In this document: positions 40,283 through 49,082 of the stretch, piece after piece
Position numbering within the stretch: the stretch's first letter is position 1
Layout of the letters: each line of letters begins with the position of its first letter
Assembly (NCBI GenBank): GCA_903911355.1
Contig: CAIWDD010000001.1
Coordinates: 62,001-126,000 of the forward strand
Origin: an uncultured Nodularia sp.
GTDB taxonomy: Bacteria; Cyanobacteriota; Cyanobacteriia; Cyanobacteriales; Nostocaceae
Direction of reading: 5' to 3'
DNA: 64,000 nt
Position numbers and translations under genes: made by a program
Notes under the pieces: model-generated
What the model saw: only the letters and a program-made list of their open reading frames with translations
What the model was told of the DNA's origin: nothing
The model's database searches: none

Positions 40283-40591
40283 ATGCCAATTGCAGTTGGA
40301 ATGATTGAGACTAAGGGGTTTCCGGCGGTAGTAGAAGCTGCTGATGCGATGGTGAAAGCCGCACGTGTGACTTTGGTAGGCTATGAAAAAATTGGTAGTG
40401 CTAGGGTAACCGTGATTGTCCGGGGTGACGTGTCGGAAGTACAAGCCTCCGTTGCGGCCGGCGTAGATGCAGCCAGAAGAGTTAATGGTGGCGAAGTATT
40501 ATCCACTCACATTATTGCCCGTCCCCACGAAAACCTAGAGTACGTTTTGCCCATACGTTACACCGAAGCTGTAGAACAGTTCCGGACTTAA
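40283..40591 (+). CDS. ccmK2: Carboxysome shell hexamer protein CcmK2
   Basis: A 102-residue single-BMC-domain protein that tiles the carboxysome facets. It contains [19 protein letters not shown] (~4-22), the VGYEKIGS pore segment with the KIGS motif (~36-39), and [20 protein letters not shown] lies 8 nt before the ATG. Its close neighbour ccmK1 is ~90% alike but longer at the C-terminus. K2 versus K1 naming follows operon order and length. Confidence 0.94.
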
Positions 40592-40624
40592 AAACTGATT
40601 TTAAGCAAGTAAAGTAATTAACGG

Positions 40625-40652
40625 GGTCGCTGTCTTGAGCGCCACTTTTTCC
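40625..40652 (+). terminator. Attenuator-like hairpin between ccmK2 and ccmK1
   Basis: GGTCGCT (40625-40631) pairs with AGCGCC (40638-40643), one bulged T, followed by ACTTTTT. This resembles a weak intrinsic terminator inside the operon. Confidence 0.45.
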
Positions 40653-40686
40653 CAAGGGTAAAAACTTTAATTCAGGATAAGAACTA

Positions 40687-41022
40687 ATGTCAATCGCAGT
40701 AGGAATGGTAGAAACGCTGGGCTTTCCCGCAGTAGTAGAAGCTGCTGATGCCATGGTAAAAGCCGCGCGTGTTACTTTGGTAGGCTATGAAAAAATCGGC
40801 AGCGGTCGAGTCACAGTCATCGTTCGGGGTGATGTTTCCGAAGTTCAAGCTTCAGTGGGTGCGGGGGTAGAATCAGTTAAACGAGTCCATGGGGGAGAAG
40901 TTTTATCTACCCACATCATTGCTCGTCCTCATGAAAACTTGGAATACGTGTTACCAATTCGGTATACCGAAGACGTAGAACAATTCCGGGAAAATGTCAA
41001 CGCCATTCGTCCTTTTCGGTAG
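40687..41022 (+). CDS. ccmK1: Carboxysome shell hexamer protein CcmK1
   Basis: A 111-residue BMC-domain shell protein nearly identical to CcmK2 in the fold (same KIGS pore motif) but with a longer C-terminal tail, [13 protein letters not shown]. CcmK1 and CcmK2 form mixed facets. It lies 95 bp after ccmK2 and 16 bp before ccmL. Confidence 0.94.
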
Positions 41023-41038
41023 AAGACCGTAATCTGTA

Positions 41039-41341
41039 ATGCAAGTTGCCAAAGTTCGTGGCACAGTAGTCAGCACGCAAAAAGATCCAAGTCTTCGCGG
41101 TGTCAAACTACTGTTGTTGCAATTAGTAGATGAAGAAGGAAACCTCCTGTCTAAATACGAAGTAGCAGCAGATACCGTAGGTGCGGGAGTAGATGAGTGG
41201 GTGCTTGTCACTCGTGGCAGTGCCGCTCGTCAGATTTTAGGTAATGAACAGCGTCCCTTGGATGCTGCAGTGGTGGCGATCATTGATACCATTCACTTGG
41301 AAGGTCGTCTCATGTACAGCAAAAAAGAGCAGTATCGATAG
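41039..41341 (+). CDS. ccmL: Carboxysome vertex pentamer protein CcmL
   Basis: A 100-residue EutN/CcmL-type protein that closes the twelve carboxysome vertices. VRGTVVSTQKDPSLRGVKLL (~5-24) and the closing AVVAIIDTIHLEG are typical. It sits between ccmK1 and ccmM, the standard order. Confidence 0.95.
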   Translation: MQVAKVRGTVVSTQKDPSLRGVKLLLLQLVDEEGNLLSKYEVAADTVGAGVDEWVLVTRGSAARQILGNEQRPLDAAVVAIIDTIHLEGRLMYSKKEQYR

Positions 41342-41397
41342 TCTTTGCTCATTCAAAGACTTAAGAAAAAAAAGCTTAATTGAGGAGGAATCTTGTA

Positions 41398-43053
41398 ATG
41401 GTTGTCCGCAGCACGGCGGCACCCCCAACCCCGTGGTCGAGGAATTTAGCCGAGCCCAAAATCCATGAAAGCACTTTTGTACATCCGGCGGCCAATATTA
41501 TTGGAGATGTGCGAATAGGTGCTAATGTCATCATTGCTCCAGGAACCTCGATTAGAGCGGATGAAGGTACACCTTTTTTTATTGGCGAAAATACTAATAT
41601 TCAAGATGGTGTAGTAATTCATGGACTCGAACAAGGCCGAGTCATTGGCGATGACCAAAATCAATACTCAGTATGGGTAGGAGAAAATGTTTCTATTACC
41701 CACATGGCATTGGTTCATGGTCCGGCTTATGTAGGAGATAATTCCTTCATTGGTTTTCGTTCCACAGTATTTAACGCCAGAGTAGGCGCGGGTTGCATCG
41801 TCATGATGCACGCTTTAATTCAAGATGTAGAAATTCCCCCTGGTAAGTATGTACCTTCGGGAGCGATAATTACTACTCAGCAGCAAGCTGACCGGTTGCC
41901 AGATGCTGAGGTTCAGGATCAGCAGTTCGCCCATCATGTGGTGGGGATAAATCAGTCATTAAGAACTGGTTATCGCTGTGCTGCGGATAGCAAGTGTATT
42001 GCACCCATTCGGGATGAGATTGCTAAATCTTATACAAATACTGGTATTACTGTTTTAGAGCTAGAAAGGAGTAGTGAAGTGTCGAGCAACAGCTTGGGTG
42101 CAGAAATCATAGAACAGGTGCGCTATCTTTTAGATCAAGGATATAAAATTGGTACTGAACACGTAGATCAAAGACGGTTCCGCACTGGTTGTTGGCAAAG
42201 TTGCCAACCCATTCAACCTGGATCTATAGGTGAAGCGATCGCAGCCTTAGAAAGCTGTCTGAAAGATCATAGCGGCGAATATGTCCGTCTGTTTGGCATT
42301 GACAATGGTAAACGGCGCGTCCTAGAAACCATTATTCAACGCCCGGATGGCATAGTCACTACCATCGCCTCTAGTGGTTTTCCGGCATCTGCTAATAATG
42401 GTAACGGTCGCTATAGTAGTAATGGCAATGGTCACGTTGCCAGCAGTGGTGTACTGAGTAGCGAAACCATAGAGCAAATTCGTAATTTGCTATCAAGTGG
42501 TTACAAAATTGGCTCTGAACACGTAGATGAGCGACGTTTCCGCACTGGTTCCTGGAACAGCTGCCAGCCCATTGAATCAACTTCCACCAATGAAGTGCTA
42601 GCCGCATTAGAAGCATGTTTAGAATCCCACCAAGGGGAATATGTACGGGTGATTGGTATTGATACCAAAGCTAAACGGCGGGTTTTAGAAAGCATTATCC
42701 AAAGACCAGGCGGAGTAGTTGCCCCATCTGCTACCAAGAAATCCTTTAGCAGCAATAGTTCCGGCACTGCTACCGCCACCGCCACCAGTACCCGGTTGAG
42801 TTCTGAAGTGGTAGACCAAATCCGACAAATTTTGGCGGGTGGATATAAAGTTACTGCTGAACACGTAGACCAAAGACGGTTCCGTACAGGTTCCTGGGCG
42901 AGCTGCGGTCAAATTGAAGCCAAATCTGACAGAGGGGTGATTGAGGCTTTAGAGGGATACCTCGCTGAATATCCAGGGGAATACGTGCGGTTAGTTGGTA
43001 TTGACACTAAAGCTAAACGCCGAGTCCTGGAAACTATCATCCAACGTCCCTAA
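41398..43053 (+). CDS. ccmM: Carboxysome scaffold and gamma-carbonic anhydrase CcmM (long form)
   Basis: CcmM gathers Rubisco in the beta-carboxysome. From ATG 41398 (strong GAGGAGG site) the protein is 551 aa. A left-handed beta-helix gamma-CA domain spans 1-205, then come three Rubisco-small-subunit-like repeats (~236-320, 354-438, 467-551) joined by Ser/Asn/Gly- and Ala/Thr-rich linkers. Zinc ligands His75, His102 and His107 are present, as is the Cys194-Cys200 pair that forms the activating disulfide in functional homologs, so this is probably an active carbonic anhydrase. Repeats 1 and 2 have two or more Cys; repeat 3 keeps one. An internal GTG start for the short form lies at 42079. Confidence 0.97.
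42065..42081 (+). promoter_or_regulatory. Internal ribosome-binding site and GTG start for short CcmM
   Basis: AAAGGAG (42065-42071) lies 7 nt before an in-frame GTG (42079-42081), in the linker just before the first small-subunit-like repeat. Initiation here gives a 324-residue protein (~35 kDa) made only of the three repeats, matching the CcmM35-type isoform known in beta-cyanobacteria. Confidence 0.8.
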
Positions 43054-43210
43054 AAGTGCTGAGTTAAGAGTGCTGTTAGCATCCGTGGGCGTAGCCATTG
43101 CTGAGTAAAATTTTTAGTCATTACTCCAGGCATCAAGCTATTGCCAACCTTATAGAATGGATTCAGCACTTAGCACTATGCTCTCTCCGGCTTCCGAGGT
43201 AAAAATTTCC

Positions 43211-43963
43211 ATGTCTGTGCCGCCACTGCACCTGAGCAACAAGTTCGAGTCTTATATAAGTGGCGAGGTGACTATTCATCCCAGCGCGGTCTTGGCACCT
43301 GGAGTCATACTTCAAGCTGCTGTAAACAGCAAGATGATCATCGGACCAGGGGTGTGTATTGGTATGGGGTCAATTCTCCAAGTTAGCGAAGGCACTCTAG
43401 AGGTAGAAGCAGGAGCAAACTTGGGAGCCGGTTTTTTGATGGTGGGTCAAGGCAAAATTGGCGCAAATGCTTGTATTGGTTCAGCAACCACAGTTTTTAA
43501 CTGTTCTATCGAGCCAGGAACAGTCATTCCGCCAGGCTCAATTTTAGGGGACACCAGTCGGGAAATTGAGGATACACAACAACCGGGAGCAGCTCCTAAC
43601 AATGGTGCTCATACCAGTAGTGAACAACAGCCAGAAGCGGAAAATAGTTTAGATCCGGATGAGGAGACAGTCATTTCCTCAACTAACATTTGTGCATCTG
43701 CTTACTGGAAATTCAAATACCAGTCTACTTCCTCTTCTGTGTCTTCGCCTACATCGGAAAGCCAGCCCCCTGCTGGAGAAAAAAACGCTGACACCAATAA
43801 ATCCATACCCCAGGAACCAAAATCAAGTCAGCCTCCCACTAAATCAGCTCATAATTTCGGGAACCAAATTTATGGACAAGGAAGTATAAATAGGTTACTA
43901 GTGACATTATTTCCCCATCGGCAAAGCTTAAATGACCCCATCTCTGACGATCAGTCTGAGTAA
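43211..43963 (+). CDS. ccmN: Carboxysome adaptor protein CcmN
   Basis: CcmN links the CcmM-Rubisco core to the shell. The start at ATG 43211 (MSVPPLHLSNKF) has a GAGGT site and fits the family; an open extension to 43157 exists. A hexapeptide beta-helix domain (~10-130, with GVCIGMGSILQV and ANLGAGFLMVGQGKIGANA) is followed by a Ser/Pro-rich disordered linker (~135-220). The C-terminal amphipathic encapsulation peptide (NQIYGQGSINRLLVTLFPHR) binds CcmK. 250 aa. Confidence 0.92.
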   Translation: MSVPPLHLSNKFESYISGEVTIHPSAVLAPGVILQAAVNSKMIIGPGVCIGMGSILQVSEGTLEVEAGANLGAGFLMVGQGKIGANACIGSATTVFNCSIEPGTVIPPGSILGDTSREIEDTQQPGAAPNNGAHTSSEQQPEAENSLDPDEETVISSTNICASAYWKFKYQSTSSSVSSPTSESQPPAGEKNADTNKSIPQEPKSSQPPTKSAHNFGNQIYGQGSINRLLVTLFPHRQSLNDPISDDQSE

Positions 43964-44010
43964 GTGTTAATTGTAAGTTGTCAGTTTCATGAGTAATCTG
44001 GAAAGTTCAC

Positions 44011-44814
44011 ATGGAAACATCTAACCAACACTCTATTAGCACAATTCAGAAATCCCGCCGACGAGATCCTCTGAAAAATACTGCTTTGGGTTTAGTCTCT
44101 ACCAGCAGCTTTCCCGCCATAGTGGGAACGGCAGATATGATGCTCAAATCCGCCGGTGTTCACCTAGTCGGTTATGAAAAAATTGGTAGTGGGCAGTGTA
44201 CCGCTATTGTCAGAGGCGGAATTGCCGATGTGCGTCTGGCTGTAGAAGCTGGTGTTCAAACTGCTGAACAGTTTGGTCAATTGGTTTCTAGCTTGGTGAT
44301 TCCTCGGCCTTATCCCAACCTGGATATAGTGCTGCCCATCACCAGCCGGCTGAGTAAATTGATGGAGGAAGGGAATCAAAGCAGTTTAAGTAACTTAGCC
44401 ATTGGTTTAGTGGAGACTAGGGGATTTCCGGCCATGGTGGGTGCTTGTGATGCCATGCTTAAGTCGGCTGATGTTCATTTAGCAGCCTATGAGAAAATTG
44501 GTGCCGGTTTGTGCACTGCCATTATTCGTGGCACTGTTGCTAATGTGGCAGTGGCGGTAGAAGCTGGAATGTTTGAGGCAGAACGCATTGGCGAATTGAA
44601 CGCAGTCATGGTTATTCCTCGACCACTAGATGAGATGGAGAAAACCTTACCTTTAGCCAGCTGCTGGATTGAACACCGCGAACCATTGCATATGCCCGTC
44701 AATGTCCAAGAGCAGGTGGCGGAAATAGAAGTGTTACAGTTGCCTGATTTATCCCAAATCCCGGCCAAAATTCCCCAGGAAGTTGCCGAAGAAATATGGC
44801 AAGATGAAGGTTGA
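44011..44814 (+). CDS. ccmO: Carboxysome tandem-BMC shell protein CcmO
   Basis: A 267-residue protein with two BMC domains (about 28-115 and 128-215) forming pseudohexameric trimers at facet edges. Each has the GLVSTSSFPA/GLVETRGFPA start and an EKIG(S/A)G pore-side motif. A short acidic C-terminal tail follows (EEIWQDEG). Last gene of the ccm operon, 47 bp after ccmN. Confidence 0.94.
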   Translation: METSNQHSISTIQKSRRRDPLKNTALGLVSTSSFPAIVGTADMMLKSAGVHLVGYEKIGSGQCTAIVRGGIADVRLAVEAGVQTAEQFGQLVSSLVIPRPYPNLDIVLPITSRLSKLMEEGNQSSLSNLAIGLVETRGFPAMVGACDAMLKSADVHLAAYEKIGAGLCTAIIRGTVANVAVAVEAGMFEAERIGELNAVMVIPRPLDEMEKTLPLASCWIEHREPLHMPVNVQEQVAEIEVLQLPDLSQIPAKIPQEVAEEIWQDEG

Positions 44815-45047
44815 AATTATTACATAATTTTAACTATTCATCTTGCCCTGGAAGGCATCTTACGCTTTGCTTGTTGTCTTGATAATAACTTGTGAATACC
44901 ATAAATAAAAGAACTTTCTTTGAATAAGATTAATAGATTTTTATCTATAGGATAATTCAGAACTTCGTATGAGTGGTTCTGTTGCATTGGCAAGTGTTCA
45001 GTGATACTAGATTTATAGATGAAATTTCTATTAGAGGAGAATCACCC

Positions 45048-45983
45048 TTGAAGCAGGCAACGCTACACCAGTTGAAGGTGTTTGAGGCAGCGGCACGGCA
45101 CAGTAGCTTTACTCGTGCGGCTGAGGAATTATTTCTTACTCAACCTACCGTGTCGATGCAAATTAAACAACTCACGAAATCGGTGGGGTTGCCATTATTT
45201 GAGCAGGTGGGAAAACGTCTATTCTTAACAGAGGCCGGGAGGGAATTATTTACCACTTGTCGGCAGATTTTTGAAACCATGGCCAAGTTTGAAATGACTG
45301 TGGCGGATTTAAAAGGTCTTAAACAGGGGCAATTACGGTTGGCAGTGATTACAACGGCTAAGTATTTTATCCCTCGTTTATTAGGGCCGTTTTGTCAACT
45401 TTATCCCGGAATTGAGATTTCCTTACAAGTCACCAACCATGAACGCATTTTGGAACGGATGCTGAATAACATGGATGACCTGTACATTTTAAGTCAAGTT
45501 CCAGAAAATATCGATGTCAACTATGAGCCATTTTTAGACAACCCTTTAGTAGTATTTGCACCCGTTAATCATCCCTTGGCAAAACAGAAAAATATCCCCA
45601 TAAAAAGGTTGACAAATGAACCTTTTATTATGCGGGAACCTGGTTCAGGGACTCGCCGCGCCGTGCAGAAACTCTTTGATCAACATGGTGTGAAGGTAAA
45701 AGTTAAACTGGAATTGGGCAGCAATGAGGCTATTAAACAGGCGATCGCCGGGGGGTTGGGAATTTCTGTTTTATCTCGCCACACCTTAATGCCAGACTCT
45801 TCTGAGTTCGCTATTTTGGATGTAGAACATTTCCCCATCAAGCGAACTTGGTTCATAGGGTATCCCTCTGGTAAACAATTATCTATTGTCGCTCGTACTT
45901 ATTACGAGTATTTACTGGAGTCCGCCAAAAAGTTTGTCGAGGAAAATGGTGATTATGGTAACAGTCCCGTTGAGAAAGTGTAA
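45048..45983 (+). CDS. LysR-type regulator of inorganic-carbon genes (CmpR/RbcR/CcmR family)
   Basis: A 311-residue LysR regulator. The start is TTG 45048, preceded by GAGGAG at 8 nt; it gives the family N-terminus MKQATLHQLKVFEAAARHSS with the winged-helix domain (residues 1-65, FTRAAEELFLTQPTVSMQIK). The C-terminal effector domain (~90-300) contains EPGSGTRRAV. Members sense carbon metabolites such as ribulose-1,5-bisphosphate, 2-phosphoglycolate or 2-oxoglutarate and control rbc, cmp or ndhF3/ccm genes; position suggests control of this cluster. It lies 233 bp after ccmO. Confidence 0.9.
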   Translation: MKQATLHQLKVFEAAARHSSFTRAAEELFLTQPTVSMQIKQLTKSVGLPLFEQVGKRLFLTEAGRELFTTCRQIFETMAKFEMTVADLKGLKQGQLRLAVITTAKYFIPRLLGPFCQLYPGIEISLQVTNHERILERMLNNMDDLYILSQVPENIDVNYEPFLDNPLVVFAPVNHPLAKQKNIPIKRLTNEPFIMREPGSGTRRAVQKLFDQHGVKVKVKLELGSNEAIKQAIAGGLGISVLSRHTLMPDSSEFAILDVEHFPIKRTWFIGYPSGKQLSIVARTYYEYLLESAKKFVEENGDYGNSPVEKV

Positions 45984-46808
45984 AATATAATTTATTTTTT
46001 GATATCGATAATTTTGGCTATACTCGGCAGATATATTTAGAAAATACCTAGCAGTCTGCCGGTGTAAGGACAACTGCGTGGGTGTAAAAAGCCTAAACTT
46101 TAAAAGTTGTCCCTCCGGGGAGGCTACCCCAGATGGTGAATTATTCCGACATTTGAGATATTAGAAAATTTTATACATTTTCCTTGCGTATTTGCCCACA
46201 GTTCTAAAAACCAAAGATCAGCCAGAATACTAGCAGGGATGGGGTTAGTAGCAAAATTGTTATGGGGCCAACCCTAGCAATTAAAGGTGGTGCAGCATCT
46301 GTAAATAAACCACCACCAACAATAGGTTCAATCTGACAGGCGATCGCTGATTATGATTAAATTTAGGTGGTGTGTGAATCCTGGACTTGCTGGAATAAGC
46401 TGGAATAATTTTTATGGTCAATTTTGTTGTCGGCAAGCTGCCAAATTTTCACGAACAATAATAGTATGGGGATGATTGTGTCGCAGCAGGCGTTATTTTT
46501 TTGTGATAGGATGCCAAACAAAGGGCTATATTTATGTAAGGCAGCCTGGGAAGTCGGCATTGTTAAAAATATCCTCAAGATTTAGGGAGAAGTCGATCAA
46601 ACGACTACAGTAGTTAATTTAGCTGCACAATTCACGTAAAATAATCAGTTTATTATTGATGCAGATATTGAAGCTTTTGCCAGTTCATAGGGAAAGCAAA
46701 ATCACAACTAGGGGCGATCGCTATTGCTGAATGGCGAGAGAAAAATACACCCTAGGGGGAGTCATAAACCACGTCTGCAAAGGAATTACAGCGTTATTGG
46801 AGAAAATA
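45984..46808. other. Intergenic region with decayed coding remnants
   Basis: About 825 bp. On the minus strand (46200-46340) a 48-codon frame reads EPIVGGGLFTDAAPPL, followed by a hydrophobic helix and a stop. It has no start and may be the 3' relic of a membrane-protein gene. On the plus strand 46560-46690 reads VDQTTTVVNLAAQF and NNQFIIDADIEAFASS between stops, another broken frame I cannot name. A small CCTCC/GGAGG hairpin is at 46112-46123. Confidence 0.4.
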
Positions 46809-47363
46809 ATGGTTAAGCCAAATCTATCCGAATCACTACAGCAAGAGGCACAAAAATTGATACTACTTGAAAATGAAGCTGCGGTTGAAGTTACAGCACA
46901 GGAAGTTACCGAACAGAATGTTTTAGCAACAGAGCAATTACTTAAACCCCATGATGCTGCTATGTCTAGTTCAAAAGATTTAGAAACTACTGTGGAAAAA
47001 TTAAAACAAACTCTGGAAGAATATCAAAATAAAGAAAAAACTCTGCAAAAACAAATTGTCGATTTACAATCAAATTTGTATGAAAAGCAAGTATTAACAG
47101 AAAGGCTGACTAAAGAACTGCACGAAGCTAAACAAACCGCCCTACAGCTTGCAGAGTCTAACTCTCAATTAATACAACAAAGTAAATCCCACATCCCACT
47201 AAAACAGGATAAGTCAGCAATTCCCAAGAAAGAAAGTGCAATCCAAGTCAAAGAGAAATATAATCCAGTTGGCTATAAAAAATCACATCGGTCTCCTGAA
47301 CATCTGCCAGAACGTCAAAAACAAAATGATGATTTTACGGATAAAACTTGGTTGTATGACTAA
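46809..47363 (+). CDS. Small coiled-coil protein in the carboxysome cluster; candidate McdB-like positioning factor
   Basis: A 184-residue protein from ATG 46809, chosen because GGAG lies 6 nt upstream; the frame is open to 46731. It has a polar N-terminus (1-55), a long Gln/Glu/Lys-rich coiled coil (~58-130, EKLKQTLEEYQNKEKTLQKQ), a charged disordered segment and a C-terminus with Trp four residues from the end (DKTWLYD). McdB proteins, which space carboxysomes with the ATPase McdA, share this architecture, including a conserved C-terminal Trp, and are often encoded near ccm genes. No McdA is in the window. The call is inference; a generic coiled-coil protein remains possible. Confidence 0.5.
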   Translation: MVKPNLSESLQQEAQKLILLENEAAVEVTAQEVTEQNVLATEQLLKPHDAAMSSSKDLETTVEKLKQTLEEYQNKEKTLQKQIVDLQSNLYEKQVLTERLTKELHEAKQTALQLAESNSQLIQQSKSHIPLKQDKSAIPKKESAIQVKEKYNPVGYKKSHRSPEHLPERQKQNDDFTDKTWLYD

Positions 47364-48244
47364 TTAATCATTGCTAAAATTTGTTTGGCGGTAACTTCTG
47401 GCTGTTCTAAGTGGGGAACATGACCAGCATCTTTGATCCAAACAAGGTTACTACTAGGAATCGCTTGGGTAAACTTTTTAGCGTCCGATGTACCTAAAAT
47501 TTTATCGGTATCTCCCCATAAGATGAGAGTTGGTTGGACAATGCTGGTAAGCTGCTTTGGTTTAAAAGCGCGATACCCACCACTTTTAGTAAAAGCTATT
47601 AAGGCTTGAGTCCAGTTAGGCATTTCTAGGTGTAATGAGGCACATATTCGAGCATCAGTTGAGGCGAGTAACTGATTTTTGTAAGCAGCGCGGGAAATGC
47701 GATCGCGTATATTAGGATTACGCAAAAAATTAGCTGCTAAAGAATCCAATGGGGGAAACATCAAGCTTGAGGGTGAACCCCCCTTCAAACCAGCGCTATC
47801 GATTAACACGAGTTTTTGCACCAATTCTGGGTAAGTTAGGGTAAAATCAATGGCAGCTGCACCCCCCATAGACGCACCCACTAAAATCACAGGTTGGTTA
47901 ATTAAAGTTTTCCAGAAATAATACAGATGAGTTTTGATAGCCAGGGGACTAAATTGCACATCGGTAATTCTGTCTGTGAACCCAAAGCCTAATAAATCCA
48001 CAGCCCAAGTTTCATTATCTCTTGGTAGCAGTGGTAAAAGGCGACGGAATTCAAACACAGAACTGTCGAATCCGTGAATTAATAAAATAGGTGTACCGCC
48101 ACTACCCTTTTGCACATAGGTAGTGGTAATTGGTTGATTAGTTAAAGGAGTGGCGATCGCTTGAGCCTGAATAATTTGAGCCAAGGCGATGGAGGTAGGT
48201 TCAGTTAGTTGTCCAACTGTGGGAGGTAAGAAATTAGGAAACAT
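47360..48244 (-). CDS. Alpha/beta-fold hydrolase
   Basis: A 294-residue hydrolase with LLIHGFDSSVFEFRRLLP (~54-71, oxyanion region), nucleophile elbow VGASMGG (Ser ~125), WGDTDKIL (Asp) and DAGHVPHLEQPE (His ~278). This is the pattern of small cofactor-free lipase/haloperoxidase-like enzymes. It overlaps the stop of the coiled-coil gene by 4 bp (convergent) and is divergent from ccmK3. Whether it has a carbon-concentrating role is unknown. Confidence 0.87.
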   Translation of the reverse strand: MFPNFLPPTVGQLTEPTSIALAQIIQAQAIATPLTNQPITTTYVQKGSGGTPILLIHGFDSSVFEFRRLLPLLPRDNETWAVDLLGFGFTDRITDVQFSPLAIKTHLYYFWKTLINQPVILVGASMGGAAAIDFTLTYPELVQKLVLIDSAGLKGGSPSSLMFPPLDSLAANFLRNPNIRDRISRAAYKNQLLASTDARICASLHLEMPNWTQALIAFTKSGGYRAFKPKQLTSIVQPTLILWGDTDKILGTSDAKKFTQAIPSSNLVWIKDAGHVPHLEQPEVTAKQILAMIN

Positions 48245-48356: not shown

Positions 48357-48665
48357 ATGCCCATGGCGGTTGGCGTCATTGAAACCTTGGGCTTTCCTGC
48401 TGTACTAGCAGCAGCAGATGCCATGGTTAAATCTGCCGCAGTCACAATTGTGTATTATGGTCAAGCCGAAAGCGCTCGCTTGTTAGTCGCGGTTCGGGGA
48501 CACGTTGCCGAAGTTCAAAGGGCTGTAGAAGCAGGAATATTAGCTGGAGAACAAGCTTATGGTGGTCAAGTAATTACCCACTATATTGTTCCTAACCCCC
48601 CGGAAAACGTCGAGACCATTTTACCCATCCACTTCACCGAAACATCTGATCCGTTCCGTATGTAA
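48357..48665 (+). CDS. ccmK3: Carboxysome shell hexamer protein CcmK3
   Basis: A 102-residue BMC-domain protein. The start ATG 48357 ([20 protein letters not shown]) has CAGGAGCT upstream; an in-frame extension into the hydrolase's 5' region is spurious. Pore-region residues differ from ccmK1/K2: VYYGQAESARLLVAVRG replaces [17 protein letters not shown], so the KIGS pore motif is lost. CcmK3 is known to make mixed hexamers with CcmK4 and tune shell permeability. Confidence 0.93.
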   Translation: MPMAVGVIETLGFPAVLAAADAMVKSAAVTIVYYGQAESARLLVAVRGHVAEVQRAVEAGILAGEQAYGGQVITHYIVPNPPENVETILPIHFTETSDPFRM

Positions 48666-48731: not shown

Positions 48732-49082
48732 ATGTCACTACAGGCCGTTGGCGCACTTGAAACAAAAGGTTTTCCTGCTGTACTAGCAGCAGCAGATGCG
48801 ATGGTGAAAGCTGGTCGCGTCACCCTTGTTGGTTATATCAGAGTCGGTAGCGCTCGTTTTACAGTAAATATTCGCGGGGATGTTTCCGAGGTCAAAACTG
48901 CTATGGCCGCTGGTGTGGAAGCTGCGGAAAATGTTTATGGTGGTACTTTGGAATCTTGGGTGATTATTCCCCGTCCCCATGAAAACGTGGAAGCTGTTCT
49001 ACCAATCGCCTATACAGATCAGGTTCAACAGTATCGGGATTCTGTAGAAAACCCCATCGTGCGTTCATCTAACAGGTTTTGA
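48732..49082 (+). CDS. ccmK4: Carboxysome shell hexamer protein CcmK4
   Basis: A 116-residue BMC protein with pore segment [11 protein letters not shown] (RVGS in place of KIGS) and a C-terminal tail ending [10 protein letters not shown]. The site AGGAG precedes the ATG by 8 nt. It lies 66 bp after ccmK3 and ends at a strong terminator (49133-49169). Confidence 0.94.

Follow-up and report, generated by a model that had tools for sequence, protein, structure and literature searches.

The gene at positions 46809-47363 (+) of the window, by which we mean the whole 64,000-nt stretch analyzed here, very probably encodes a beta-McdB type 2 protein that descends from an mcdA-mcdB operon and now acts on carboxysomes without McdA, as judged from sequence comparison. 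McdB is the adaptor that links the carbon-fixing carboxysomes to their positioning motor McdA. In the window genome the adaptor has been kept while the motor gene is dead, and this suggests that McdB has a useful function without its usual partner.

The mcdB gene and its predicted product

The open reading frame of mcdB is intact, encodes 184 aa and ends with a TAA stop. A longer frame from an upstream ATG at 46731 (210 aa) was rejected, its first 26 codons lying inside the mcdA remnant in another reading frame; we place the start at 46809 because it is fixed there by the orthologs and by the TAATG junction described below. A ribosome-binding-like sequence, GGAG (46799-46802, +), is retained within the mcdA remnant, and GGAG(G/A)AAATAATG is conserved in the relatives.

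AlphaFold2, run on an alignment of the window McdB with 37 named orthologs, predicted an N-terminal helix (residues 6-16), a low-confidence linker and a coiled-coil helix (residues 55-127), most of which had a pLDDT above 90; everything outside the two helices was of low confidence, and the tail was predicted to be disordered. Gln accounts for 21 of the 184 residues (11.4%), and 11 of these Gln lie in the coil; Lys and Glu together make up 24.5%, and there are very few Arg. The protein has a single Trp, Trp181, which is followed by three more residues and lies in DDFTDKTWLYD, the C-terminal ending being NDDFTDKTWLYD. The initial annotation had described a Gln-rich central coiled coil, a disordered part and a Trp four residues from the C-terminus, and this architecture is borne out by the reading frame, the composition and the structure prediction. 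With their low pLDDT and biased composition, the flanks of the coil match the disordered flanks of low hydrophobicity in beta-McdB type 2.

Homology to beta-McdB type 2

Orthologs were matched in 39 of 60 relatives. Trp181 was invariant in a 38-row ortholog alignment, and a Trp was found within the last six residues in 120 of 121 orthologs, the sole exception being interrupted by masked bases; the C-terminal Trp is therefore not a matter of chance, and its loss from orthologs, which the initial annotation had named as a refutation, does not apply. The orthologs have the N-terminal consensus MxRKRLSDLLQEEAQK, with the conserved motif KKRLSDLLQEEAQK, and share a coil end, LTKELxEAKKxALQLAEANSQLIEE, which is followed by a variable basic tail and then by the invariant Trp.

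A profile built from 38 orthologs (A1) matched 137 of 242 Cyanobacteriia genomes. We read 53 distant loci, and at 48 of them a ParA gene precedes the homolog, which begins where that gene ends or no more than about 150 bases from there; the ends of the two genes often overlap by 4 or 13 bases. The ParA proteins carry the motif KGGVGKT, except for one with KGGVAKT. They form a tight family, 59-72% identical to the sequence in the first alignment row, and the homologs in these operons keep the C-terminal Trp as GWVD, TWLL, SWLL and similar endings. The profile missed two genomes of the same order (3.3-3.4 Mb) in which the genes are laid out likewise, the McdB starting with MASSKQNLSDLLRQEAKQ and ending with EEIGWFD. 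The operon arrangement of beta-McdAB type 2 and the signature lysine of its McdA have been described (PMC8262871). The layout of ParA and mcdB, together with KGGVGKT, is this arrangement, and the window protein is thus an McdB by homology. The initial annotation had called it McdB-like; the comparison strengthens that reading, since the gene is an ortholog of mcdB from beta-McdAB type 2 operons.

Coiled coils can yield spurious profile matches, and searches of Pfam, NCBIfam and the PDB with the window protein and its profile returned generic coiled-coil matches only, with no fitting family. A rival explanation is that the window gene encodes a coiled-coil protein of other origin, similar to McdB in composition only. 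However, this explanation is contradicted by the operon context, in which the gene directly follows mcdA, and both KKRLSDLLQEEAQK and the C-terminal Trp motif are conserved outside the coil, so that we regard it as hardly credible.

By its sequence features, then, the window gene encodes a genuine McdB that belongs to beta-McdB type 2 and has been orphaned. The characterized example of this type is the protein of Synechococcus sp. PCC 7002, to which the window McdB is likened by description. The Gln-rich central coil, the disorder and the C-terminal Trp with acidic residues are common to both; in type 2 most orthologs have a basic N-terminal helix and the operon of the relatives has a type 2 McdA, whereas the window genome has an mcdA pseudogene and a reduced basic pair. 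The alpha-McdB type 2 of cso operons, likewise an orphan, has no charged N-terminus (PMC8262871). The window McdB shares its role class, its C-terminal Trp and its richness in Gln with beta-McdB type 1 (S. elongatus PCC 7942), which has a C-terminal coiled coil and a partner McdA without the signature lysine (PMC8262871). We rejected identity with type 1, as the coil of the window protein is central and the partner family carries KGGVGKT.

Carboxysome genes around mcdB

The window mcdB is linked to carboxysome genes on both sides. A ccmK-ccmK-ccmL-ccmM-ccmN-ccmO cluster (40283-44814, +) lies 2 kb upstream, with the same gene order in Anabaenopsis elenkinii, and is followed by a gene for a LysR-family regulator (44973-45983, +), the upstream neighbor of mcdB, whose context is also found in A. 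elenkinii. Genes for a ccmK3-type (48357-48665, +) and a ccmK4-type shell protein (48732-49082, +) lie 1 kb downstream. The initial annotation was right to place mcdB between the LysR gene and ccmK3-ccmK4, but an alpha/beta-hydrolase gene on the opposite strand (47360-48244, -) sits before ccmK3; it is convergent with mcdB, and the two ends share 4 bases. The same hydrolase gene and ccmK3-ccmK4 adjoin mcdB in many, though not all, of the Nostocaceae relatives. Outside Nostocaceae, the operon lay mostly away from ccm genes at the distant loci that we read. Orthologs unlinked to carboxysome genes had been given as another refutation of the McdB reading, and this does not hold in Nostocaceae, where the copies often adjoin ccmK3-ccmK4. 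No Rfam family was found within the 64,000 nt.

Remains and repeated loss of mcdA

The intact McdA that a functional McdAB positioning system requires is missing from the window genome, which is 99.55% complete. No McdA match was obtained in it at E<1e-25, and its best ParA scored 48 bits against the McdA profile, compared to 354-407 bits for McdA members; no McdA was found in the congener Anabaenopsis elenkinii CCIBt3563 either. A search for a ParA-type McdA elsewhere in the genome, suggested by the initial annotation, thus found none, and what we found instead was an mcdA pseudogene directly upstream of mcdB.

Using intact Nostocaceae McdA as the tblastn query, we recovered two pieces of this pseudogene. 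The N-terminal piece (46586-46708, +; McdA residues ~13-54), from which a weak match reaches back to 46550, contains GGVGKTTTAVNLAAQF decayed to GEVDQTTTVVNLAAQF, followed by a stop and a small deletion. The C-terminal piece (46699-46806, +) covers the last 37 residues and contains two stops, AITQWRGKNAREAESDYRRVANELQRDWRK having changed to AIAEWREKNTP*GES*TTSAKELQRYWRK. About 120 codons have been deleted between the pieces, which are collinear and end exactly at the start of mcdB. The best tblastn score was 35.0 bits, compared to a maximum of 24.3 in 500 dinucleotide-preserving shuffles. At TAATG (46807-46811, +), the former mcdA stop (TAA, 46807-46809) overlaps the mcdB start (ATG, 46809-46811), as it does in intact relatives. 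We aligned the junction with those of Nodularia (L215-L217) and a Nostoc MAG (L230) and with intact mcdA minus its middle, and found the same breakpoint, McdA residue ~54/~174, in the window, Nodularia and the Nostoc MAG. The common junction indicates one ancestral deletion of mcdA, followed by separate decay.

The loss was repeated within the family. Present in 210 of 217 Nostocaceae genomes, mcdB directly follows mcdA in most of them, with McdA matched at E below 1e-90. On an rpoB tree of 49 genomes, those without mcdA fell into 7 separate groups, with 7 changes by both Fitch and Dollo reconstruction; the count of about seven is approximate, one nine-genome grouping being poorly supported (9.8/50). 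Both states, mcdA present and absent, occur inside three genera. Other lesions of mcdA were found in a genome of the Cylindrospermum group (G312), in Anabaena lutea, in the Sphaerospermopsis/Trichormus group and in g22, and no trace of mcdA remains upstream of mcdB in the genomes of the Dolichospermum group.

Some further observations concern the distribution of the genes. In G009, mcdA (L056, L196) is well conserved apart from a TAA within the frame, which may reflect a sequencing error or an inactivation that happened very recently. A few Nostocaceae, the genomes G011 and G289 and the genus g175, appear to have neither McdA nor McdB. Many of the genera without mcdA form planktonic blooms, among them Dolichospermum, Aphanizomenon, Cuspidothrix, Nodularia, Sphaerospermopsis and Anabaenopsis. 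Gas-vesicle genes, which were found in 12 of 25 genomes without mcdA compared to 5 of 24 with it, track the loss loosely and not cleanly.

Selection on mcdB and its N-terminus

With its partner gene already dead and the N-terminus of the window copy diverged, mcdB might be a functionless leftover that has been slowly decaying since the loss of mcdA. We consider this quite improbable. The reading frame is intact in nearly all genomes without mcdA over about seven losses, the Trp motif is invariant, and the mcdA pieces have decayed heavily over the same period. In pairs without mcdA, the dN/dS of mcdB was mostly 0.2-0.4, similar to that of pairs bearing mcdA. For the window and A. elenkinii the whole gene gave 0.38, the coil 0.23 and the final 12 codons 0.18, the values for such short segments being noisy. 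As far as these codon comparisons go, mcdB is kept under purifying selection after the loss of mcdA.

The N-terminus presents a more mixed picture. Each of the 81 McdB copies that are accompanied by an intact mcdA has two K/R or more among residues 2-7, whereas 8 of the 38 mcdA-less copies, from 3 of the 7 loss groups and including that of the window, have fewer than two. In the window, where the protein begins with MVKPNLSES, the usual basic pair is cut to one Lys. The K/R count differed between the two groups with p=0.009, uncorrected for relatedness, and the net charge of residues 2-9 showed no difference between mcdA-bearing and mcdA-less orthologs (p=1.0). The loss of K/R fits the report that the first 20 residues of McdB bind McdA in Halothiobacillus neapolitanus (PMC12204374). 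Because the net charge is unchanged and the counts are not independent, we take the apparent erosion of the N-terminus in mcdA-less copies, which is partial, as a lead rather than proof.

Since at least two K/R are kept by 30 of the 38 mcdA-less orthologs, McdB may still contact an ATPase of some kind in many of these lineages. The main alternative to our reading builds on this retained basic N-terminus and on the several ParA/MinD ATPases of the window genome: McdB would work with another ParA/MinD-type ATPase, for example a conserved 293-aa ParA on contig C72 or MinD, and the positioning of carboxysomes on the nucleoid or membrane would persist. The best candidate is the 293-aa ParA (L069; G000:C72:21118-21996, -), which 19 of the 20 Nostocaceae searched for it carry at 78-97% identity. 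However, it is equally present in genomes bearing McdA and is absent from G014, which has McdB without McdA, so that it is not a dedicated replacement and a takeover by it was not supported. In addition, the basic pair has been lost in the window, in Nodularia and in two other lineages. We therefore judge that a partnership with another ATPase is unlikely, although it is less so than the decay of a useless gene.

A proposed role of McdB without McdA

The preferred reading, in which McdB acts on carboxysomes without McdA, can be put as a series of steps. McdB was inherited from an mcdA-mcdB operon whose mcdA decayed in place through the deletion that the window genome has in common with Nodularia and other close relatives. 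The C-terminal Trp motif would still anchor the protein on the carboxysome shell; in S. elongatus and H. neapolitanus, carboxysome binding depends on this Trp (PMC11321042). The coiled coil would oligomerize the protein, which may then act on the spacing, condensation or function of carboxysomes without McdA, and the N-terminal helix of the window copy, with its basic pair eroding, would have lost its McdA-binding task.

In S. elongatus, Rillema et al. reported that the asymmetric-division phenotype was stronger in delta-mcdB than in delta-mcdA, and they pointed out that orphan McdBs occur in numerous species, which suggests a role independent of McdA (PMC8406218). The window McdB has no neighboring McdA, as in these orphans of cyanobacteria and proteobacteria (PMC8406218). 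Unlike the reported orphans, it has a dead mcdA still visible in place, and the genome has no intact McdAB pair to which it would be a surplus copy. These fossils in place show that the orphan state arose by decay of a linked mcdA, and that this happened several times.

McdB and orphan McdB are already known kinds. What appears to be new is the fossil of mcdA, its repeated in-place decay in Nostocaceae and the partial erosion of the McdB N-terminus, none of which we found described in the papers covered, which did not extend to the original type 1/type 2 survey with its list of orphans (MacCready 2020).

Whether McdB does more than recruit McdA is a question raised by the S. elongatus mutants and by the orphan McdBs. 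The repeated death of mcdA, with readable fossils and a preserved McdB, provides a set of natural knock-outs, and an McdA-independent role of McdB is directly testable in the relatives within Nodularia, Anabaenopsis and Dolichospermum. Here evolution separates residues related to McdA, the N-terminal basic pair, from a residue related to the carboxysome, the C-terminal Trp. We lean towards the broader view that the heterocyst-forming cyanobacteria have a second, McdA-independent carboxysome function of McdB, which selection would have kept through about seven losses of McdA, and that McdB may in some lineages already be without the end that binds McdA, leaving a coiled-coil or condensate protein dedicated purely to carboxysome binding.
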